Below, in pieces: positions 2 to 24,503 of a DNA stretch of 44,113 bases. The notes beneath the pieces were generated by a model. That model worked only from the letters and a program-made list of their open reading frames with translations. It was not told where the DNA came from and searched no databases. Numbering within the stretch: the stretch's first letter is position 1; the number at the start of each line of letters is the position of its first letter. The DNA is from Kiritimatiellia bacterium. Its GTDB lineage: Bacteria; Verrucomicrobiota; Kiritimatiellia; RFP12; UBA1067. The stretch covers positions 1 to 44,113 of the forward strand of contig JAGCMU010000061.1 of NCBI GenBank assembly GCA_017646325.1, read 5' to 3'. A program made the position numbers and the translations under genes.

Positions 2-1528
2 CACTTGAAAAAGAAACTTTATGACTGGGGAGCATGGACACCTCGTGGAAACAATCATTCAACTAAATCAATCATTCGCTTTGAAAATGTTCGTTCGGGA
101 CTTGAAGTCCCAGGAAGCTGGTTTTATGATGGAGCGAATAAAAAGATATTTTATAGGCCGCTCGCTGGCGAAAAGATTTCTGAGTTTAAGCCTTATGCTC
201 CGACATCTGGTCTCGTCAATTTAATCCGCATGCAAGGCGATGTCGAAAAAGGTGATTTCGTCCACGACATCAATTTTAAGAATATCGCATTTACGGGAAC
301 AACAAGCGCAGGGGAGAGGCTTCCTTCAGGACTTGTTCAGCAATATCAGCTTCAAGCGGCGTATTTGTCAAGTGCCGCCATCTTCGGTGAAGGTGTGCAT
401 CGTGTGACGTTTGACAAGTGTCAAGTCCGCGATACGGAAAATTACGGTATCTTTCTCGGCAGAGGATGTGTTTCAAATAAAATAACGAATTCAAAATTCA
501 CCAATCTTGGCGCCGGTGGGATTTGGCTTGGTGATACAATCGCAGGTCCCCAATGGATGACTAAAACAAAGTCGCCTGGATTAATCGCGCCTGCTCAAAA
601 CCGTATTCCGCTGTTGACTGAAAAAATACATTATATGGATAATCCCGCCAATGCTTTCAACGTGATTGACAATTGCGAGGTTTCCCTTTGCGGACGCGTA
701 AATCCTGAAGGCTGCGGCATTGTATTTACGCATGTTTCCGATTCAACCATTACACATTGTGATATTCACGATCTTTACTATACGGGAGTAAGTCTTGGAT
801 GGACATGGGGCTTTTTGGGGTCTGTCGCCCAAAGGAATACAGTTTCATTCAACCGCATTTGGGATATAGGCAAGGGCATAATGAGCGATATGGGCGGAGT
901 ATACACTCTCGGAGCAAGTTTCGGAACGAGCATATCAAATAATATAATCCATTCTGTAAAGGCATTTGCGTATGGAGGATGGGGGCTTTACAACGACGAA
1001 GGAAGCGAAGGTATCGTGATGGAAAATAATCTCGTTTACGATACGTCTAACGCTTCTTACAATATGCATTACGGCCGCGAGAACGTCGTTCGCAACAACA
1101 TCCTTGCGTATGCCGACACGCATCAGATTTCTTTCACATGCGCATTTGCGCAGCGTCTTGTGACGTTTGAAAACAACATCATCTATTCGCATGGCAAAAA
1201 CGGTAATGCCGTATTCAAACCGCCGCGCGTATTTTACGATACGACATACGCCGATATTCATTGGTCGTCAAATATAATCTGGAGCGCGTCGGGAGTCGTG
1301 AATTCAACGTACGAACCGTATTCGCCGCTGTTTTTCGGAATGGATCGCATTAAAGAAAAGACTCCTCCATACCCGTTGCATTATTCAAACATTACTGGAT
1401 TTTTTACAGATCCGAAGTTTGAAAATGTAGAGAAACGCGATTTTAGAATTAAAGATGATTCTCCTGTGCTTAAATATGGATTTAAGCCTTGGGACTTTTC
1501 GCTTTCTGGTTTGAGAAAAAATAAGTAA
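2..1528 (+). CDS. Right-handed parallel beta-helix protein, GH141-like (5' partial)
   Basis: Probable secreted or surface glycan-active enzyme with a parallel beta-helix fold. The reading frame is open to the left edge, so the N-terminus and any signal peptide are missing; the first possible start inside the window is TTG at 5, but it lies in the middle of domain-like sequence. An early segment (GSWFYDGANKKIFYRP) resembles the small domain that interrupts the helix in GH141-type proteins. It is followed by Asn-rich coils (NTVSFNRIWDIG, ISNNIIHSV, MENNLVYD) and the run HYGRENVVRNNILA, which recurs in that family. GH141 members described so far act on fucosides or xylan, but I cannot fix a substrate here. 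The next gene starts 17 bp downstream, so the two are probably co-transcribed with the esterase gene as a glycan locus. The beta-helix assignment is firm; the GH141 label is an inference from motifs. Confidence 0.75.
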   Translation, partial: HLKKKLYDWGAWTPRGNNHSTKSIIRFENVRSGLEVPGSWFYDGANKKIFYRPLAGEKISEFKPYAPTSGLVNLIRMQGDVEKGDFVHDINFKNIAFTGTTSAGERLPSGLVQQYQLQAAYLSSAAIFGEGVHRVTFDKCQVRDTENYGIFLGRGCVSNKITNSKFTNLGAGGIWLGDTIAGPQWMTKTKSPGLIAPAQNRIPLLTEKIHYMDNPANAFNVIDNCEVSLCGRVNPEGCGIVFTHVSDSTITHCDIHDLYYTGVSLGWTWGFLGSVAQRNTVSFNRIWDIGKGIMSDMGGVYTLGASFGTSISNNIIHSVKAFAYGGWGLYNDEGSEGIVMENNLVYDTSNASYNMHYGRENVVRNNILAYADTHQISFTCAFAQRLVTFENNIIYSHGKNGNAVFKPPRVFYDTTYADIHWSSNIIWSASGVVNSTYEPYSPLFFGMDRIKEKTPPYPLHYSNITGFFTDPKFENVEKRDFRIKDDSPVLKYGFKPWDFSLSGLRKNK

Positions 1529-1545: not shown

Positions 1546-4050
1546 ATGAAAAAGCATATTGGAAAGGTGATGGCTCTATTGGGGTGTTTAGTTTTTATGG
1601 CTATTTCAAATGTAGCATGCACTCCAAAAGAAAGAGTAGAACTCGTAAAAGACGGAAAGGCGTTGGCTCAAATTGTCGTTGCCGACAAGGCGACTCAAGC
1701 CGCTCAATTCGCCGCTTCGGAATTGCAGCTCCATCTGAAAAAGATTACCGGTGTTGATTTTGAAATATCATTGGAATCGAAAGCGGGTCCAGGATTCAAG
1801 ATTTTTGTCGGCGAGTCGTCCGCTACAAAAACGAAAGCGTCTGATCTCGTCGACCAGCAATACGTAGTCGATATCAGAAAAGATGCAATTGAACTTATTG
1901 GCCGCGACGAACAGATTTTCAAGAAGGCGTTTGTCGAAGAAAAGAACGGAAGTGTTTATTCAAGAAATAAACCGTCTCTTTATTCTGAACAAGGGACAAT
2001 GTATGCCGTATATGAATTTTTGGAACAGAATTGCGACGTTACATGGGTCGACGGTTCTGATTACGGCACTGTTATCAAGCCGAATAAAAATCTGGCGGTA
2101 ACTCTTGGCCGCACCCAATACGAACCTTTTATGTCGTATCGCGGTGGAACGATTTCATATAATCCAAGTCCTCTCCTTTGGAAACAATCAAATGCCGGTT
2201 ATAAGGAATATCTTGCCGCTGCATTTAAGGATCCCAAAAACGCCAAAGCGTCATGGGAGCTTTATTTGGCCCGTTCCCGCGCAGGTGGATATTTGGCAAG
2301 TGCAAACCATTCGTTCTATTGGTGGTATTCGCGTTTTTGGAATGAAAACGACAAGTGCTTCGAAAGAAAAGCACCCGAATATTTTGCGCAAGGTTACGAC
2401 AAGCTGCCTCCGCAACTTTGCTACATGCATCCTTTTGTAATCAAGCAGACGGTTGAAGATATTCGCGCGTATCTCGATAATAACGGATACACAAATACGT
2501 ATCATGGTATTGGAACAAAGGGTCCGTCATGGGGCAAGAACCGTTATTGCTTAGAGCCGATGGACAACAACTCTTTCTGCAAGTGTTCACGTTGCGCAAA
2601 GTATTACGAGAGCGAACGCAAGGACGATAATTCGGAGCACTCGACGTATTGGTTTACATTTGTGAAGATGGTTGCGGAGGAAGTGAAGAAATCTCATCCG
2701 ACTGCAAAAATTTCAACTCTTGCGTATATGTCGCATGAAGGCCTTCCTACTAACGTAACACTTCCTGATAACGTAGAAGTTTATTTCTGCCTTAGCGGCA
2801 ACCGCGAAAATCCTCGTGGAAAATTGTGCAAGGAACAAAGTGCGCGTATGGAGGAATGGCATAAGGCGTATCCGAATATGAAACTCGGAATGTGGCTTTA
2901 TAGCGGCTTCCCGTTGGAATTCGCCCACAATGGAAATTACCAATGTGTCCCTGGATATTTTGCACGCGAGAATGCAAAGCAATTTCATTTCTTCAAGAAG
3001 ATGAATGCCCGCGTAGGTATTTTCAACTGCGGTCTTACCGGCGAGGTTTGTCAATTCATGACATTCGCGCTTATGCGCAATCCGGATTTGGAAGCCGAAT
3101 ATTTGCTCGATCGTTACTTCTCTCAATACGGCGCGGCGGCAAAGCCTCTCAAGGAATTTTACAATCTCGTTGAAGAGCGTTATTGCGATACTGCCCTTTG
3201 TCCGAAGGGTGTTTCTCGCAGAACGACTGCATATAACTGGCTGCATTGTTGCCCGGTAGAGATTGTTGAAAAGCTTGAAAAATATATGAATGAAGCCGAA
3301 AAGCTTGCTCAAACTCCAGAAGAAAAAGAGAGAGTTAAACTTTTCAAGCTTTCTCAATGGAATTGGATGAAACTCGGTTCGGATACGTACAATGTTCGAA
3401 TGAAAGCGCCAATGCCCGAATGGACGGCTGTGAAAATTGCTGAAGTTCCAGGTGGCGATATTGAAAAGGTAGAATGGGATAAGATTCCTCTCATCAAAAC
3501 GCCAATGTATGAAAGAGGCGGCAATGTTGACGTATCAGACATTGTCGGGCTCGAAGCGCGTTTTGCCAATGACGGAAAATATTTCTATCTTGAATTAGTC
3601 CAAAAGCGCGATTTGTCAAAAGTCCAAATCTCAGGTCACGTTTGTCCTTTTGACGATTGGGAACTTTATATGGCTCGTCAAAGAGCACAGCCTTACCGTT
3701 GCTATTTTGCCGACCCTGACAACCGTATGCATGCGGCAAGTTGGGGCGAGGTTAACTGGCGTCAGCACGTTCCTTCCATTGAAGGGTGTCCGGATCCGGC
3801 ATATTTCGCAAAAACAAAGACGATTCTCGATAAGAAAAACAATCGCTGGATTCAACGCTTTTCATTCCCTCTTGACAAGTTTCTTGACGCCCCGATGAAA
3901 CCAGGCGATACTTTCTATTTGACGCCCGTTTCAGTTCTCAATAACAAAGTTCCGCCAAAGGCCGATTCTGTATTTTATATTATTTCAGCTGTTTCCTATT
4001 CTACCGTACATACAATTGACCGGTCTGCGTCAGTAACTCTTGAAAAGTAA
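1546..4050 (+). CDS. DUF4838 domain protein with GH67-type N-terminal domain and CBM9-like C-terminus
   Basis: Large exported protein of 834 residues. The first 25 residues form a signal peptide ending at a cysteine (SNVAC); the position three before the Cys is Asn rather than Leu/Ile/Val, so lipid attachment is likely but not certain. Residues about 30-165 resemble the N-terminal domain of alpha-glucuronidases (ATQAAQFAASELQLHLKKIT). The middle part matches the DUF4838 barrel-like region and contains a cysteine-rich FCKCSRC segment near residue 345. The last ~190 residues (from about 645) look like a CBM9-type beta-sandwich (ARFANDGKYFYLELVQKRD). Such proteins are frequent in polysaccharide loci of Verrucomicrobiota, Lentisphaerota and Bacteroidota, but activity is poorly known. 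It sits between the beta-helix gene and the CE15-like esterase, suggesting glucuronate-decorated glycans. The ATG at 1546 follows an AAAGG ribosome binding site. Confidence 0.85.
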   Translation: MKKHIGKVMALLGCLVFMAISNVACTPKERVELVKDGKALAQIVVADKATQAAQFAASELQLHLKKITGVDFEISLESKAGPGFKIFVGESSATKTKASDLVDQQYVVDIRKDAIELIGRDEQIFKKAFVEEKNGSVYSRNKPSLYSEQGTMYAVYEFLEQNCDVTWVDGSDYGTVIKPNKNLAVTLGRTQYEPFMSYRGGTISYNPSPLLWKQSNAGYKEYLAAAFKDPKNAKASWELYLARSRAGGYLASANHSFYWWYSRFWNENDKCFERKAPEYFAQGYDKLPPQLCYMHPFVIKQTVEDIRAYLDNNGYTNTYHGIGTKGPSWGKNRYCLEPMDNNSFCKCSRCAKYYESERKDDNSEHSTYWFTFVKMVAEEVKKSHPTAKISTLAYMSHEGLPTNVTLPDNVEVYFCLSGNRENPRGKLCKEQSARMEEWHKAYPNMKLGMWLYSGFPLEFAHNGNYQCVPGYFARENAKQFHFFKKMNARVGIFNCGLTGEVCQFMTFALMRNPDLEAEYLLDRYFSQYGAAAKPLKEFYNLVEERYCDTALCPKGVSRRTTAYNWLHCCPVEIVEKLEKYMNEAEKLAQTPEEKERVKLFKLSQWNWMKLGSDTYNVRMKAPMPEWTAVKIAEVPGGDIEKVEWDKIPLIKTPMYERGGNVDVSDIVGLEARFANDGKYFYLELVQKRDLSKVQISGHVCPFDDWELYMARQRAQPYRCYFADPDNRMHAASWGEVNWRQHVPSIEGCPDPAYFAKTKTILDKKNNRWIQRFSFPLDKFLDAPMKPGDTFYLTPVSVLNNKVPPKADSVFYIISAVSYSTVHTIDRSASVTLEK

Positions 4051-4060
4051 AGGAGATAAA

Positions 4061-6049
4061 ATGCGAAAATTGTTTTTACTTGCCTTAAGCACGCAATTGG
4101 CAGTTTCTGCGTTTTCGGCTGATTTCTTGGTTCGTGATGACGGTACGAAGGCTTTTAATGTATTGTCATGGAAGCCTCGAATGCTTGAAATTACTCGTAA
4201 GTTCGAGCGTGAAGTGTTCGGGATGATGCCGTCGATTCCCGAAAAGCTGAAAATGGAATGTATTTCCACGGATGAAAATTTCCTGAACGGCAAGGCTACA
4301 TTGAAGCGAATCAAGTTTACATGGCCACGCCTTTACGATAAAGGCGAATTTGTTGCAACTGTTGTTCTTCCAAATCGTCCTGGAGCCATGGCGTCCTTCG
4401 TTCTTGTAAGGTCTGAGCCTATCGCCGAAAAGCCTGAACCTACAGAGGATTGGCCATTTGATGAATTAGTCTCGCGTGAATACGCAACAATTGCATTTAA
4501 CGGAAATGATTTGACTGCCCCATCAGCGGTAGATGCAATCTCTCAACGCGCACTTGCCTTCAGAATGATTTACGAATGGATTTTGACGGAACCGCGTATG
4601 GAGGCTATGAATACAAGTCCTGTCGGCTGCGGGCCGCTTGACGGCGTATCTGCTTTTTGGGCAAGTTCGTTTGATTGGCGTTTTTATTGTGTAGTTGCCG
4701 CACAAACGGGACTTGGCGAAAAGTTTATCGAACTTGCGGCAAACAATACTCCTGGAATGTTGTATACGTGTTCTTGCACTGAGCAGACAAAGGAGGAGAT
4801 TGCAAACGACAAGGCTCTTGCAGAAAAAACGTTTCCTGCTTGGAAGCTTTACGACGCAGTGAAGCCGTTGGGCGGCAGTACCGATTACCATTGCCGTGAA
4901 GGTAAGAAGGGGCTTGTACGCGAAGACTGGAAAAATATCCTCGCCTTTACCGATCGCCATTTTTGGGGGAAGAGTTTACAAAAGAAGCCTCTTGATTCAA
5001 TGCCAGGACTTCCTGATATGACGAGGGAAGAAATAGTCGACTTTTTTAGGAAGAACGTTTATGGATACGCTCCGCCGCGTCCAGCGGATTTACACTTTGT
5101 GCCGACGTCTCCCGATGTGGAAATCGTTCTTGATGATGGAACTAAGGTTATCCGCAGGCAGATGATGGCGAAGTGGAGCGGGAAGTTAGGCAAGGGCGAA
5201 TTCCCATTCCATCTTTTCATCCCGAAAAAAGCAGGAAAAGTTCCTGCGATTGTGGGGCTTCAATTAAGAAAGCCTGAGATTGGGGACGAAAAGAAAATCA
5301 ACTCCGAAAGATGGTGGGATATCGAACAGATCGTCAAGCGTGGATATGCCGCGATAGGTGTTTGGTATAAAGGTATTTCACCTGATTCATATCACGAGTT
5401 TGATGTAAAGCCTTTTAATGTTTTTGAAACACCTAAAGAGCGCACGAATGAAAGTTGGGGTGCAATATCCGCTTGGGCGTGGGGGCTTCATCGTATAGTC
5501 GACTACATTGTTACTCTTCCTGAAATTGATTCAAAGCGCATTATCGTGACGGGTCATTCGCGTGGCGGAAAGACGGCTCTTTGGGCGGGCGCGCAGGATG
5601 AGAGAATCGCTCTCACCGTTCCGTTGGGATCTGGCCGCGGCGGCATGTGTGTTTATCACATGACGTTTGCAACGCCCGCGGAAACGATTGCGATCATGAA
5701 CTCTGCATACCCGTATTGGTGCTGTGGAAATTATAAAAAATGGAACAATCGCGATTTTGAAATTCCGTTCGAACAATTCTGGCTCGTATCTGCAATCGCG
5801 CCACGCCGCATATACGTGTGCGAAGCGCTGGGGGATGCTACGCGATATGGCGACTGGTATACGCTTACAAAGGCCGCACCTGCATGGGAAAAGTATGGAA
5901 TGAAGGCTTTGCCTGTCGGTCCTATCCCTGAAACGGGCAAACCTGCGTGGTCTGAGGGGACGGGATTCCATGTCCGCACAGGTCCTCACAGCGTGTATTC
6001 GTACGATTGGCAGGAAATTATGAATTATGCAGACGCTTATTTGAAGTAA
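4061..6049 (+). CDS. CE15-like alpha/beta hydrolase (glucuronoyl esterase family), two-lobed
   Basis: Secreted esterase of 662 residues with signal peptide MRKLFLLALSTQLAVSAFSA. The C-terminal half (about 325-662) carries the bacterial glucuronoyl-esterase nucleophile elbow GHSRGGKTALWAG with Ser500, and a likely catalytic His643 in RTGPHSVYSYDW. CE15 enzymes split the ester between glucuronic acid of xylan and lignin alcohols; this substrate is inferred from family. The N-terminal half (about 25-310) repeats the same landmarks (REVFGMMP against KNVYGYAP; YHCREGKKGLVREDW against FHVRTGPHSVYSYDW), but its elbow reads GCGPLDG near 189-195 and the His is Lys, so it looks like a catalytically dead copy. 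An upstream TTG at 4040 overlaps the previous gene; the ATG at 4061 has AGGAG six bases before it and begins the signal peptide, so I chose it. Confidence 0.82.
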   Translation: MRKLFLLALSTQLAVSAFSADFLVRDDGTKAFNVLSWKPRMLEITRKFEREVFGMMPSIPEKLKMECISTDENFLNGKATLKRIKFTWPRLYDKGEFVATVVLPNRPGAMASFVLVRSEPIAEKPEPTEDWPFDELVSREYATIAFNGNDLTAPSAVDAISQRALAFRMIYEWILTEPRMEAMNTSPVGCGPLDGVSAFWASSFDWRFYCVVAAQTGLGEKFIELAANNTPGMLYTCSCTEQTKEEIANDKALAEKTFPAWKLYDAVKPLGGSTDYHCREGKKGLVREDWKNILAFTDRHFWGKSLQKKPLDSMPGLPDMTREEIVDFFRKNVYGYAPPRPADLHFVPTSPDVEIVLDDGTKVIRRQMMAKWSGKLGKGEFPFHLFIPKKAGKVPAIVGLQLRKPEIGDEKKINSERWWDIEQIVKRGYAAIGVWYKGISPDSYHEFDVKPFNVFETPKERTNESWGAISAWAWGLHRIVDYIVTLPEIDSKRIIVTGHSRGGKTALWAGAQDERIALTVPLGSGRGGMCVYHMTFATPAETIAIMNSAYPYWCCGNYKKWNNRDFEIPFEQFWLVSAIAPRRIYVCEALGDATRYGDWYTLTKAAPAWEKYGMKALPVGPIPETGKPAWSEGTGFHVRTGPHSVYSYDWQEIMNYADAYLK

Positions 6050-6058
6050 TAAGCGTCT
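6031..6058. terminator. Perfect inverted repeat over the stop codon of the esterase gene
   Basis: AGACGCTTAT (6031-6040) is repeated inverted as ATAAGCGTCT (6049-6058) with an 8-base loop, and the stop codon at 6047-6049 lies at its edge. It sits between convergent genes. A U-tract is missing on both sides, so it could be a transcript-end or stability hairpin rather than a classical intrinsic terminator. Confidence 0.45.
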
Positions 6059-6070
6059 ATGTAAGGAGAG

Positions 6071-6910
6071 TTACTTTATCTTGGGCGGCATCGTATCTTT
6101 CATGCCTAATGCGAGATATTTTGATCTTGCGTAATCAAGATACTCAAGTTCCACCATTGAAGTCTCGGCAATGCCGAGACTTTTTAAGTATGCACGCCTT
6201 GCCTTCAAATCCTCGCCGTCATTGTGGTTGGGGACGACGAGCATGCGCACTTCAATTTTTGCGTTTGCGGCAACTAAACGCTCAAGGTTTTTCTTTATAA
6301 TTTTATTCGATACACCAGTTAATTTTTCGTGAAGACCATCATCGAACGCTTTAAAATCGGGTAGCCACATATCTGTCACTTCGAGCATTTTTTCGACAGC
6401 GATTGGCGGAGCGTAAAGGGAAGTGTCAAGGCAAGTTGAAAGCCCGGCTTCTTTGCAAGCCGAGAAAAATTTATACGCCCATTGCCAGAAATAAAGAGGT
6501 TCGCCGCCCGAAAGAGTAATCCCGCCGCCGGTTCGTTTGTAAAAGGGCGTGTCTTCAAGGGCTTTTTTGACGAGATCTTCGATTGACCAGGGTTTGCCGT
6601 AAACCTTAAATGCGCGAGTAGGGCAAGTCGCCTCGTCCATCGTGCATTTTTTGCACTTTTGGCAAAGGTGTTTAAAGCGGGCGATTTGACGTTCCGGGCT
6701 AATCGATTCGGGATTATGGCACCAAATGCATTTTAACGGGCATCCTTTTACGAAGAAGGTGGTGCGAATACCAGGACCGTCATGAATAGCCATGCGCTTA
6801 GTGTCAAGCATCAACGGAGTTTTTATGACAGGATCTTTGGCGATAAGCATGTTTGGCAATATACCAGCAGCTATACCGCTTCCAATAAAAAGACGTCTAT
6901 TAATGTTCAT
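6071..6910 (-). CDS. Radical SAM glycyl-radical-enzyme activase homologue with Tat-like leader
   Basis: Homologue of pyruvate formate-lyase activating enzymes, which use S-adenosylmethionine and a [4Fe-4S] cluster to make a glycyl radical on a partner enzyme. The cluster-binding motif is GCPLKCIWCHNPE (CxxxCxxC), preceded by HDGPGIRTTFFVKG and followed by a cysteine-rich insert (CQKCKKCTMDEATCP) like the ferredoxin insert of this family. GGITLSGGEPL is the SAM-binding GGE motif. The first ~28 residues (MNINRRLFIGSGIAAGILPN) are a twin-arginine plus hydrophobic stretch typical of Tat signal peptides, which is very odd for an enzyme needing cytosolic SAM and reductant. I chose ATG at 6910 (AAAGG ten bases upstream); an ATG at 6937 would add nine residues. 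No glycyl radical enzyme is encoded in the window. It converges on the esterase gene. Confidence 0.8.
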   Translation of the reverse strand: MNINRRLFIGSGIAAGILPNMLIAKDPVIKTPLMLDTKRMAIHDGPGIRTTFFVKGCPLKCIWCHNPESISPERQIARFKHLCQKCKKCTMDEATCPTRAFKVYGKPWSIEDLVKKALEDTPFYKRTGGGITLSGGEPLYFWQWAYKFFSACKEAGLSTCLDTSLYAPPIAVEKMLEVTDMWLPDFKAFDDGLHEKLTGVSNKIIKKNLERLVAANAKIEVRMLVVPNHNDGEDLKARRAYLKSLGIAETSMVELEYLDYARSKYLALGMKDTMPPKIK

Positions 6911-6973
6911 TTTACTAAAACCTTTTAAATTTCTCATTCTCGTTGTTTGAAAATACAGGACTTGCTTACCGAC

Positions 6974-6994
6974 TTACATTATGTAAATAGTATA
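6974..6994 (-). promoter_or_regulatory. Extended -10 promoter with palindrome at the start site (radical SAM gene)
   Basis: On the minus strand TGGTATACT (TATACT at 6994-6989) forms an extended -10 box with no clear -35. The palindrome TTACATTATGTAA (6974-6986) covers the predicted transcription start about seven bases downstream, a typical repressor position. The leader to the ATG at 6910 would be about 70 nt. Confidence 0.45.
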
Positions 6995-19698: not shown

Positions 19699-21375
19699 TT
19701 ATTTTTCGTCTAAAGTACCTTTGTATTCTCCACGACGGATTTTTTGTGTAGAAGTTCTCAAGAGAGGAGTTTTTGAAATAACGACTTTTCTGACGCGCTT
19801 GTAGTCGGCCATATTGTGACATCTTGCCTGTACGCGTTCTTTTGTGATTTTTTCGATATCCTCCCAGCTTGGAAGATTTCCGTTCGTTTCTTCTTTCAAC
19901 ACTTCAAGATTAGGGCAAACAATACAGCCTACTTTTTCTCCGGGCAAATCACCTGTCGTATATCCAACTACGATACAATCGGAAACGAAAAGATCTTCTG
20001 CGATATAGTTTTCCACTTCTTCAGGATAGATGTTTTTGCCTTCGCGGTTTACGATGAGGGCTTTTTTTCTTCCGCGTATTGTGATGTAACCATCATCGTC
20101 AATCGTAGCCAAGTCGCCGGTCATAAACCATTCGCCGTCAAAAGTTGCTGCGGTCGCCTCGTCGTTTTTCCAATATCCCTTCATAGTGATAGGGCCTTTA
20201 ACCTGCAACTCTCCAATTCCGTTTTCGTTGGGATTGTCAATGCGTACATCAATGCCCGGGATTTTCTTTCCGATAGTTCCGACTTTTCCTGATTGGGCAC
20301 CGGAAATAGAAACGATTGGAGCACATTCCGTAAGACCATACCCTTCAATCATTTTTATTCCAAACTTGTTAAAGCCATTAATGATGTGTAACGGGCATGG
20401 AGCGCCGCCAACTAACATGAAGCGGATATTGCCGCCAAGAGATGAGGTGAGCTTTTTCTGAACGAGAGATTTTAAACCACAGGCTATGAGCAGTTTCGCC
20501 AGTTTTGAAGAGTTGATTTTCTTTTCAATTTTTTCGTAGAACTTTTCCGCCATGAGCGGTACGCACATGATGACAGACGGTTTTAGATTGCGTGTGTCTT
20601 CGGCGACCGTGTAGAGAGATCTGACGAAATAAAGCGCGCTTGCCATTTGGAGAGCGACAACAAAATTTGCCGTGAATGAGAAGGCGTGGAAGAGGGGAAG
20701 TACAACCAAGAATGAATCTCGCTCATCAACATCGGCTTCAAATCCTTCAATAGAGCCTTTTGCATCTTCAATGAAGTTTTTATGCGTGAGCATCGCGCCT
20801 TTTGGCTTGCCCGTAGTTCCCGATGTGTAGAGAATGGACGCTATGTCGTCTTCTTTCGCCACATTCTGGGAGTACCAGGAAGTTTCGGTTTCTTTAAATT
20901 GCTCATAAAAGGCTTCATACGAATATACTTTTACATTACCGATTTGCTTCAAATCCTCTTCTTTTACGGCTCCAATCAAAACGAGAGAACGGACAGACGG
21001 AAGGTTTGGTAAAATATTGCGCATCATTTCAAGGTGAGCAACATCTGTTGTGACGATTGTCGCTTGAGAGTTTGATATTATCCAATGCGCTTCCTCGTCG
21101 TGAAGCTTTGGATCTACCGTTACAACGCCTACACCCGCGCCGCTGCAAGAAAGATAAGAGGTTACCCATTCAGGATTGTTGGGGAGAATCAACGCGACGT
21201 TTTCTTCTCGCGGTTTTGCCCCTAAAACCGTTCCGTAAGCCTGGGCGATTATGTGGACATTTTTCAAGAATTGGGCATAAGAGCAAGTTTGCCATCGCTC
21301 GTTTTTGAAAAATTTTAAAGCAACAGCATCGGGATGCGTTTTTGCACTGTTTTCTAAAAGAGTACGAATTGTCAT
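19699..21375 (-). CDS. AMP-dependent acyl-CoA (or acyl-ACP) synthetase
   Basis: ANL-superfamily enzyme of 558 residues that activates a carboxylic acid as acyl-AMP and passes it to CoA or a carrier protein. Motifs in order: the phosphate loop YTSGTTGKPKGAMLTH near residue 186, the GYGLTECAPIVS motif near 345, FMTGDLATIDDDGYITIRGRKKALIV with the conserved Asp and Arg near 420-445, and the C-terminal lysine segment STQKIRRGEYKG. It most resembles long-chain fatty acid CoA ligases (FadD type), but the substrate cannot be read from sequence. Its start overlaps the apbE stop by four bases (ATGA), so the two are translationally coupled. In this envelope-related operon it might recycle or attach fatty acids. 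Confidence 0.88.
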   Translation of the reverse strand: MTIRTLLENSAKTHPDAVALKFFKNERWQTCSYAQFLKNVHIIAQAYGTVLGAKPREENVALILPNNPEWVTSYLSCSGAGVGVVTVDPKLHDEEAHWIISNSQATIVTTDVAHLEMMRNILPNLPSVRSLVLIGAVKEEDLKQIGNVKVYSYEAFYEQFKETETSWYSQNVAKEDDIASILYTSGTTGKPKGAMLTHKNFIEDAKGSIEGFEADVDERDSFLVVLPLFHAFSFTANFVVALQMASALYFVRSLYTVAEDTRNLKPSVIMCVPLMAEKFYEKIEKKINSSKLAKLLIACGLKSLVQKKLTSSLGGNIRFMLVGGAPCPLHIINGFNKFGIKMIEGYGLTECAPIVSISGAQSGKVGTIGKKIPGIDVRIDNPNENGIGELQVKGPITMKGYWKNDEATAATFDGEWFMTGDLATIDDDGYITIRGRKKALIVNREGKNIYPEEVENYIAEDLFVSDCIVVGYTTGDLPGEKVGCIVCPNLEVLKEETNGNLPSWEDIEKITKERVQARCHNMADYKRVRKVVISKTPLLRTSTQKIRRGEYKGTLDEK

Positions 21376-22304
21376 GCGGCTAATCCTTTAATCCATTTGA
21401 GAGGGTCCCGTAATTTGTCAAATATCGGTGACTGTTTTCGTGCGATTAAAATATCTGAGCGTAATTCTTTTGCGGCATTTGCAATTTCTTTTTCGCTCAT
21501 AGAAAGAACTGCAGTTGAAAGAGCGTCGGCAATTGTCGCATTAGGAGCAACTACCCAAGCATGCTCCCAAGAGGAAGCGGCTTCGCATTTGCGAGGGTTT
21601 ATCACGTGTTGCCCCTGCGCTTCAAATCCGGAGGCGGACAATGCTCCATTTTTTATTTCAATGTATGCTTTGTGTTTTGAGCGGCTTTTCCATTTTCCTC
21701 CGACGCCAAGTTTTTGCGGAATTGTTCCGCTTGCCAAAACGGTGGAGGAACCGGCATCAATCATAAAGTCGGTTATTTCAAATTGTTCGCCTTTTATGAC
21801 TTTCTTGCATTCGTCAAGGGCGAATCCTTTTCCAATGCCGCCGAAATCAAGCTCGACGGGTGTCGGTCTTCCCAATTTGTCTTCAGTTACGGAAATGCGA
21901 GTATGTTCTATGTCTATGACGAGGCGCTGCATTCCACACCTTGCAAAGGCATCTTCAAAATCCTCTTTTGAGATGTTTTCCCAATTCATGCCATTGTCGC
22001 GCAAGAGTTTCATGACCGGTGCGAGGGAAGGGTCGAAGGCGCCTTGTGTCGCCGCGCAAACATTGACTGATTCAAGAATCACAGCCATCGTTTCAGGCGC
22101 AACTACGGCGACTTCTCCTGGCTTTAAACTGCGTATTACCGCTACGTCGCTAGTGTCATTAAAAGTACTTAAGAGACGTTCAATATCGTCAATCTTTCTG
22201 AATGCTTCAACAGAAGCCGCTTCAGAAATCGAACGTTCCGCTCCATCGGCAAATGTAATTGCGAATTGACAATTCATTGCTCTATGTGTGTAGATTGACG
22301 ACAT
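21372..22304 (-). CDS. apbE: FAD:protein FMN transferase, ApbE family
   Basis: Transfers FMN from FAD to a threonine of partner flavoproteins such as RnfG, NqrC or extracellular electron-transfer proteins. The 310-residue product carries the family motifs: LDFGGIGKGFALDECKK (FAD and Mg2+ binding), a MIDAGSSTVLASG segment, HVINPR and ADALSTAVLSMS. The usual SxSG motif appears as ALSASGFEAQGQHVINP. There is no obvious signal peptide or lipobox, unlike many ApbE proteins, so it may act in the cytoplasm. No FMN-binding (flavinylation) target is encoded in the window. It follows the multiheme cytochrome gene by nine bases, which suggests a shared electron-transfer role. Confidence 0.88.
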   Translation of the reverse strand: MSSIYTHRAMNCQFAITFADGAERSISEAASVEAFRKIDDIERLLSTFNDTSDVAVIRSLKPGEVAVVAPETMAVILESVNVCAATQGAFDPSLAPVMKLLRDNGMNWENISKEDFEDAFARCGMQRLVIDIEHTRISVTEDKLGRPTPVELDFGGIGKGFALDECKKVIKGEQFEITDFMIDAGSSTVLASGTIPQKLGVGGKWKSRSKHKAYIEIKNGALSASGFEAQGQHVINPRKCEAASSWEHAWVVAPNATIADALSTAVLSMSEKEIANAAKELRSDILIARKQSPIFDKLRDPLKWIKGLAA

Positions 22305-22313
22305 TGTGAAAAC

Positions 22314-24503
22314 TTACTTTCCTTGTTTCTCTTTCCTCATCTTACAGTAGCAACGAACCTTCTTTGATACGCAAACCATAATCGAAGCAAAGACAAAAGC
22401 GAGGGAAGATATTCTATGCAGCCAAAGGAGCGCGAGTTGGTCAACCCCTCCAAATACGGTCATCATAGGCATTACCGCGCTGAACAATACTACCGCTGCC
22501 AAGATACACCAAATGCTCCAATTCCCCGCCTTGCAAATACATTCCTCGTTTGGATTGGTCGAGAACATCGCAAGGACGGGAACGCACGCTGCAAAAATGC
22601 CGCCTGCTACCATGTGAAGAATCAACGCATAAGAAGTCATCGTTCCCGAAATCCATCCAATGATGCCGGATGAGGCAAGGTAAAGGAGGGAAAGAATGAA
22701 GGTAATGCGAGTCAATACTCTTACCAATTTGCGCAATGAGCAATCTTTCTCTGCTATTCTTTCAATAAGCAATTTGAGAAGGACAAACGACATTGCAATT
22801 GCAAATACAGCCATAAATCCAAATACCGCCCAAAGGAATACCTTGAATAAAGGACGCATTGCAAATGTCGTTCCTAAGAGTTTCTGATAACATCCATCAA
22901 GTCCCATAAGAGTGTAATTTGAAATTGCTTCGCTATGAGCATCTGTAATAGGGCCTGTGGGCGTAATCTTTCCTAAGAAGAATTTTGAGTCACCCGTGTG
23001 GCAGTCGGCACATTTGGCAGGGGCTGCGCCTCTTGCCTGGCGGCGAGGACGGATGTCGTGAGTAAAGCCCCAATAGATCGGCTCTGCGGCAGAATGCGCA
23101 GAGGCAACGAGATTCGTTCCATCAACCTTCCAAAGTTTTCCGTGACCGATGAAGGCGAATTCTTTCGATTTATCTTTCTGTGATAAATTATTAAGTGTTT
23201 TTGCTACCGAAGATTTTGTCAATGCGCCCTTGATGGCATTTGCGCCGTTTAAAAGAGCATCGTCAGGACGAATAGGTTCAACGTTTTCACCTTTGACAAC
23301 AGCAAAGAAACTTGGCCATGTCATACGGTAGGGAGAAATTTTTCCGCCAGGACTTGTCTTCATATAAATTGGTTCAAGAATGTTTGGAATATCCGTTGCC
23401 CATTGCGCTCGTCCATAAATTCCAATCCTGTTGGCGCGCGACGTGCGTACTTGAGCGACCTCGCCGTTTGCTGTTACGCCGGAGTGGCATACCCTGCAAG
23501 AAATCTTCTTGAAGTGAACGAGCGGAATGCCTTTATGAGCGGGCTTTGGACCTGCCCCTTTAGGGTCGATATGGCAATCGCCGCAGGATTTTGTTTGAAC
23601 GCGGTGGTCGATTCCGTTGTAGTGGCAATCAACACATTTCATTCCCGCGCGCAAGTGTACGTCTCCTGCAATCGCGTGAGAAGGCATATCCTTTTGCGTA
23701 ACAGAGTGGCATGCGAAACAGCGCTCGTTACGAGGCTTTCCGACTTTGAAGAGACAGCGGTTTTTATCGTCAAAACGCTTCAAGTCGTACTTGATGCGCT
23801 GTGGAACTTTGAAGAGCTTGTCATCGGGGTTTACTTTCTGAACGGCGCCGCTCCAAGTTGCCCCCATGCGAGCGTTCATACCTTCAACCTGCGCGATACC
23901 CGAGGCGGCGCTTGCAGCCCCGCTAAAGTTTTCGCGGGCAATTTGACGGGCCCATTCGCTGGAATCGTATTCGTCGTCTTGCTGGTGGCAGGCAAGACAG
24001 TTTTTCTCAAGTGGTCCTGTTACTAACCAGCGCGACTTTGCGCCGCACACTTCTTCCATCGCATTAGTATCAGAGCCGATGCCTCCGCCAGGAAAGTTTC
24101 GTGCAAATTCTTTCGTCCATTGCCACGCAGACATTCCGATGGCAGCTGGCGTATAAATGCCTTTTTGCGCGGAAAAGGAAAGGGGGATTGATGTGCCGAG
24201 TTTTTCATCGACTAAAAACCAAGGTTCGGTATACGCTTTATTGACTGCTTCATTTGTGTAAAGCCCCGTTCTGAAGTGAGAGGCTCCATTCATTGCAGAT
24301 ACATCGTGGCATTGACCGCACGTCTTTTCAAATGAAATTCCGGAAGGGGAGATTTCAGATGGGGAAATGGCGGTAGAATCGCCGTCGACAGGTGCGAGGC
24401 GATGAACAGGCGGAACTCTTCCGCCGTTCCAATGGGATGCTGCAAGAGTTAATGTTGTAACGGTTATAAAAGCGAATACGGAAGTGCTGCTTGGTTTAAA
24501 CAT
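22314..24503 (-). CDS. Heptaheme c-type cytochrome fused to a membrane cytochrome b-like domain
   Basis: Electron-transfer protein of 729 residues. It has a signal-anchor-like N-terminus, then seven CxxCH heme c sites at 62-66, 169-173, 262-266, 290-294, 307-311, 336-340 and 498-502. After residue 550 come five membrane helices (about 554-580, 594-618, 622-646, 663-683, 690-712) with two in-membrane histidines, H630 and H696, which could bind heme b as in cytochrome b561-like or formate dehydrogenase gamma subunits. So one polypeptide could carry electrons between the quinone pool and a periplasmic partner. It sits between the exbB-exbD pair and apbE. The heme sites are plain; the b-type heme is inference. 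The family and physiological substrate are not known to me. Confidence 0.85.
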   Translation of the reverse strand: MFKPSSTSVFAFITVTTLTLAASHWNGGRVPPVHRLAPVDGDSTAISPSEISPSGISFEKTCGQCHDVSAMNGASHFRTGLYTNEAVNKAYTEPWFLVDEKLGTSIPLSFSAQKGIYTPAAIGMSAWQWTKEFARNFPGGGIGSDTNAMEEVCGAKSRWLVTGPLEKNCLACHQQDDEYDSSEWARQIARENFSGAASAASGIAQVEGMNARMGATWSGAVQKVNPDDKLFKVPQRIKYDLKRFDDKNRCLFKVGKPRNERCFACHSVTQKDMPSHAIAGDVHLRAGMKCVDCHYNGIDHRVQTKSCGDCHIDPKGAGPKPAHKGIPLVHFKKISCRVCHSGVTANGEVAQVRTSRANRIGIYGRAQWATDIPNILEPIYMKTSPGGKISPYRMTWPSFFAVVKGENVEPIRPDDALLNGANAIKGALTKSSVAKTLNNLSQKDKSKEFAFIGHGKLWKVDGTNLVASAHSAAEPIYWGFTHDIRPRRQARGAAPAKCADCHTGDSKFFLGKITPTGPITDAHSEAISNYTLMGLDGCYQKLLGTTFAMRPLFKVFLWAVFGFMAVFAIAMSFVLLKLLIERIAEKDCSLRKLVRVLTRITFILSLLYLASSGIIGWISGTMTSYALILHMVAGGIFAACVPVLAMFSTNPNEECICKAGNWSIWCILAAVVLFSAVMPMMTVFGGVDQLALLWLHRISSLAFVFASIMVCVSKKVRCYCKMRKEKQGK

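Follow-up and report, generated by a model that had tools for sequence, protein, structure and literature searches.

In this work we describe a family-wide set of glycyl radical enzymes (GREs) and GRE activases with predicted export signals in gut Kiritimatiellae, as found in MAG sequences. One of its members is encoded in the window, by which we mean the whole stretch of 44,113 nucleotides that was analysed. Judged by its sequence, the window protein is a GRE activase, and its radical SAM body is preceded by a leader of the Tat type. The best reading, to which we attach a probability of about 0.6, is that of a Tat-exported activase that would serve exported GREs acting on glycans.

The activase gene occupies positions 6071..6910 on the minus strand and encodes 279 amino acids followed by a stop codon. 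It starts with an ATG at 6910 and stops at 6071, and the plus strand of the same stretch contains 10 stops; an earlier sequence-only reading had given the right coordinates and missed the strand. A ribosome-binding-like AAGG, located by eye (6921..6924, minus), lies 10 nt 5' of this ATG, and an alternative ATG at 6937 would add 9 residues. The radical SAM cluster motif CX3CX2C (C57, C61 and C64; 6719..6742, minus) and the GGE motif, in the form SGGEP (residues 134-138; 6497..6511, minus), are intact, as had been proposed, and both are kept in all 33 aligned orthologues.

The protein scored 233.4 bits against the NCBIfam model TIGR02494, above the curated cut-off of 174.35, and is thus a member of this family, and it fell under the cut-off of all named equivalog activases (PflA, HypD, CutC, sulfopropanediol and others). 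The AmmeMemoRadiSam radical SAM enzyme was also considered as a candidate and rejected (37.7 bits, cut-off 220). The Pfam domains are Radical_SAM and Fer4_12, and the body of the predicted structure (pLDDT 83) is nearest to the PFL activase (PDB 3CB8/3C8F). The ferredoxin-like cysteine insert described earlier is present but reduced (C83-C96; 6623..6664, minus), with C83, C89 and C96 invariant and a fourth cysteine (C86) found in 16 of 35 orthologues. The two-cluster insert with eight cysteines, common but not universal in TIGR02494, is absent from the window activase, so that its insert probably carries one cluster or none.

The leader corresponds to residues 1-26 (6833..6910, minus) and reads MNINRRLFIGSGIAAGILPNMLIA, with the n-region MNINRR, the motif RR-L-F-I and a hydrophobic core, in agreement with the twin-arginine-like leader first reported. 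In the structural model these residues lie outside the fold, in a stretch for which the input alignment had no coverage in its other rows. We compared 35 orthologue genes, 60-75% identical, from ruminant and horse gut Kiritimatiellae. A diverged leader (RR or RK, any residue, F or M, then a hydrophobic stretch) was found in 16 of them, several with RK instead of RR, and every one of these leaders is of the Tat type; the 19 others start at the body. When leadered genes were compared in their two most similar pairs, the leader codons showed 11 synonymous and 4 replacement changes in one pair and 9 and 4 in the other, and this mostly synonymous change indicates that the leader is translated and constrained. 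On the orthologue tree the trait is clustered and requires four changes. The recurrence of the leader on 16 orthologues is, on these sequences, more than chance. More distant GRE homologues elsewhere in the phylum, as well as their adjacent activases, showed no leader wherever the N-terminus was readable, and the leaders therefore look like a gain inside the Kiritimatiellae family of the window. A second activase subfamily provides an independent case: in genome G019 (L091) an activase with its own Tat leader (6105-6974) adjoins a Sec-leader GRE of group B (3721-6108).

Homologues starting near residue 30, which the sequence-only reading had named as evidence against its proposal, do exist (the 19 leaderless genes), but their distribution fits export, since in each of the four genomes that carry an orthologue and lack TatC the orthologue has no leader. 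TatC was found in 49 of 60 relatives, including 6/6 leadered genomes tested, and was missing from G041, G048, G050 and G052, which carry the leaderless orthologues of a sister clade. It was also not found in G044, G045 and G058, and several such sister-family genomes are fairly complete. These absences look like a lineage loss of Tat. TatC was likewise not found in the window's own MAG, which is 63.5% complete, and this may count against export.

The sequence-only reading had stated that no GRE is nearby. This holds for the window but not for the system, and the partners had been overlooked: in relatives a GRE gene adjoins the activase gene, and these adjacent GREs bear Sec or Tat leaders of their own. 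The partners form two subfamilies, group A (loop RVCGWN, active site GCYEF or GCYEP) and group B (RVCGFSARF). Using one explicit home-made rule for Sec- and Tat-type leaders, we called a leader in 42 of the 51 group A and B GREs of the window's Kiritimatiellae family, at least two of these 42 having doubtful starts, and one group A subtype shows only a short hydrophobic start. Among the remaining GREs of these genomes, which belong to classical PFL and two further classes, the same rule was positive for 1/33 (Fisher p 7e-14), and among the group A and B GREs of sister families for 0/13 (p 4e-8); both p-values ignore shared ancestry. A Sec-leader GRE subtype (DAFTNDLPYLKRKWR) was observed at L077, L233, L224 and L222; in genomes G066, G071 and G072 the only activases found that could serve this subtype are leaderless. 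The window's own genome contains a single activase match and two GREs, one on contig C54 and the other on C91. Each of the two GREs starts with a Sec-type signal peptide, and the GRE gene of C91 comes after a GH3 gene whose product bears a signal peptide.

The strongest pointer to the location of these GREs, and also to their substrate, comes from fusions in which a secreted glycanase precedes the GRE in the same polypeptide. In G113 a GH16 domain and, after it, an entire group B GRE are encoded behind a Sec signal in a single frame (L181:922-4551), and this frame overlaps with the beginning of the Tat-leader activase gene directly downstream (locus L181:922-5431). In G064 a GH5 domain and a group A GRE share one frame with a signal peptide (L186:11821-15162), which is interrupted by masked bases. 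Separately, we observed in the TatC-less genome G041 a group A GRE joined to a domain of beta-lactamase fold, with no signal peptide (L117:380-3799, minus).

The sequence-only reading had the activase gene facing a glycan operon. A convergent neighbour on the plus strand, a glucuronyl-esterase-like alpha/beta hydrolase (4064..6049), ends 22 nt from the activase stop, and is preceded on the same strand by a DUF4838 protein with weak GH67 N-terminal similarity (1546..4050) and a right-handed beta-helix protein truncated by the window edge (5..1528). Homologues of the esterase were found adjoining GREs in one weak case only. Tallies of neighbouring Pfam families came from a set that also contained antisense ORFs and housekeeping genes, in which glycan-acting families occur without being dominant, and for this reason individual neighbours alone were used as evidence. 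Further along the window (21372-24503, minus), an ApbE-family protein without a signal peptide comes before a membrane protein in which seven CxxCH heme motifs were counted by eye, a heptaheme cytochrome. Extracytosolic electron transfer by ApbE-flavinylated proteins has been documented in bacteria (PMC8238504). To tie the window's ApbE-like protein or heptaheme cytochrome to the electron supply of the activase would be speculation.

The catalytic residues of the group A partners are those of dehydratase-type GREs. Cys404, Glu406 and Gly725 (numbering of the C54 GRE) are invariant in 50 group A GREs and align with the corresponding residues of hydroxyproline dehydratase (6VXC) and glycerol dehydratase (1R8W). 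The model of a partner GRE (pLDDT 90, pTM 0.90) is nearest to HypD, PflD and the glycerol and propanediol dehydratases. As anhydrohexitol phosphates are present in the structures 8ID0 (PflD) and 8ID7 (YbiW), sugar-like ligands have a precedent in the GRE fold, and the most likely reaction type of group A would therefore be the dehydration or ring opening of a sugar, or an elimination from it. Group B GREs (e.g. L087, L098 and L207) have the active-site segment GCGCWNG without the dehydratase-type Glu, and since no Glu stands at the dehydratase spacing their reaction may differ from that of group A.

Adjacent activase-GRE pairs fell into six with a Sec GRE and a leadered activase, eight with a Tat GRE and a leaderless activase and one with a Sec GRE and a leaderless activase (Fisher p 0.0014), a distribution that amounts to only one or two independent contrasts on the tree. 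This pairing fits a simple logic, in which a GRE crossing the membrane unfolded needs activation outside, while a GRE crossing folded can be activated inside. A strict rule that a Sec GRE needs a leadered activase was considered as well; it holds for adjacent pairs and fails genome-wide in G064, G066, G071 and G072, where Sec-type GREs occur and only leaderless activases were found. Because of these four exceptions and the small number of independent contrasts, we do not claim it. The four genomes are counted against export, as are G027 and G090, in which a leaderless GRE lies beside or near a leadered activase.

Under the export reading, the leader would take the activase through the Tat translocase in its folded state, with its cluster already in place; of the three possibilities raised by the sequence-only reading, this one is the best supported. 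Outside the cytoplasm, the activase would take a hydrogen atom from the C-terminal glycine of GREs that bear signal peptides and would have arrived unfolded via Sec; in its own genome these would be the GREs of C54 and C91. Once activated, these GREs may work in the periplasm or on the cell surface, where they would cleave C-O bonds in sugars or glycans alongside secreted glycosidases. In relatives with a Tat-type GRE and a leaderless activase, the GRE may be charged inside, before export. Two negative results count against this reading: no exported S-adenosylmethionine synthetase was found, nearly all tested genomes having one MetK each, and no obvious extracytosolic source of reductant was found. 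A more far-reaching proposal, which we consider rather unlikely, is that whole glycyl-radical systems of anaerobic gut Kiritimatiellae have moved outside, as secreted radical glycan lyases, some of them GH16-GRE or GH5-GRE fusions, that would attack glycans through radical cleavage of C-O bonds and would be activated in place by an exported radical SAM enzyme.

An alternative with some weight, although we consider it unlikely, is that activation is always cytoplasmic. The Tat system transports folded cofactor proteins, and it could export GREs already folded and carrying their radical, the activase leader serving only to bring the activase along or to park it at the membrane. This would account for the supply of S-adenosylmethionine and reductant, and the eight operons with a Tat-leader GRE and a leaderless activase agree with it. 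It leaves unaccounted for the six operons in which Sec-type GREs, expected to cross unfolded, stand beside Tat-leader activases, as well as the window's own genome, where both GREs are Sec-type, and it gives no reason for a leader on the activase.

It is less probable still that the leader is an uncleaved N-terminal anchor, N-in/C-out, holding the catalytic domain outward near an electron-transfer chain. The window leader, with its positive n-region, hydrophobic stretch and weak cleavage motif (L-I-A), would suit such an anchor, and several orthologues have no clear AxA; A-x-A-like sites are present, however, in several other orthologues and in most partner GREs, and the Tat leaders have short cores of low hydrophobicity.

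A relic or an artefact, either chance in-frame sequence upstream or a wrong start in front of a cytosolic activase beginning near residue 28, appears very improbable. The 19 orthologues that start at the body and the own MAG lacking a detected TatC would be in its favour, but the same leader grammar with diverged letters is shared by 16 genes, and the changes between the closest pairs are mostly synonymous, as expected under purifying selection, which contradicts the fusion relic proposed earlier; moreover, leaders occur on the partner GREs and not on the control GREs found in these genomes. Finally, targeting to a compartment inside the cell, for example a bacterial microcompartment, suggested by the N-terminal encapsulation peptides that some known GREs bear, is hardly credible, as no BMC shell protein was found in 60 relatives or in the own genome and the leaders show Sec or Tat grammar, some of them preceding secreted glycanase domains.

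Compared with known systems, the window activase resembles other TIGR02494 activases in its CX3CX2C and GGE motifs, its partial TIM-barrel, the cysteine insert between cluster motif and barrel and, in relatives, a gene adjoining that of a GRE. It differs from them in its Tat-type leader and in an insert cut down to three invariant cysteines. The partner GREs share their fold, Cys-x-Glu and radical Gly with HypD 6VXC, glycerol dehydratase 1R8W, PflD 8ID0/8YJO and YbiW 8ID7, and are distinguished from dehydratase-type GREs by signal peptides, by the loop RVCGWN in place of RV(A/S)GY, by glycanase neighbours and, in some relatives, by fusion to GH16 or GH5. Like Tat-exported metalloenzymes, the activase combines RR/RK-x-F with a protein that folds round an Fe-S cluster in the cytoplasm, but unlike them it requires S-adenosylmethionine and a reductant. 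To our knowledge, both of these are cytosolic in all known radical SAM systems, and the GREs and radical SAM enzymes known to us are all cytosolic, owing to their need for S-adenosylmethionine and low-potential electrons.

In the open-access literature that was searched, neither exported GREs nor exported GRE activases were found to be described. The components are known, and the predicted location, the fusions and the context are new relative to the literature searched. Predicted export and context suggest that sugars of plants or mucus are attacked outside the cell by radical chemistry that is sensitive to oxygen. If the export reading is true, radical chemistry takes place outside the cytoplasm, S-adenosylmethionine and electrons have a route across the membrane, and herbivore-gut anaerobes have a new mode of glycan attack. 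By analogy only, the exported GREs would resemble lytic polysaccharide monooxygenases, which are likewise secreted redox enzymes working alongside glycosidases but which depend on copper and on oxygen or peroxide and have an unrelated fold. Secreted radical glycan lyases, if they exist, would be an oxygen-free functional counterpart of these monooxygenases, one that would require S-adenosylmethionine in the envelope.
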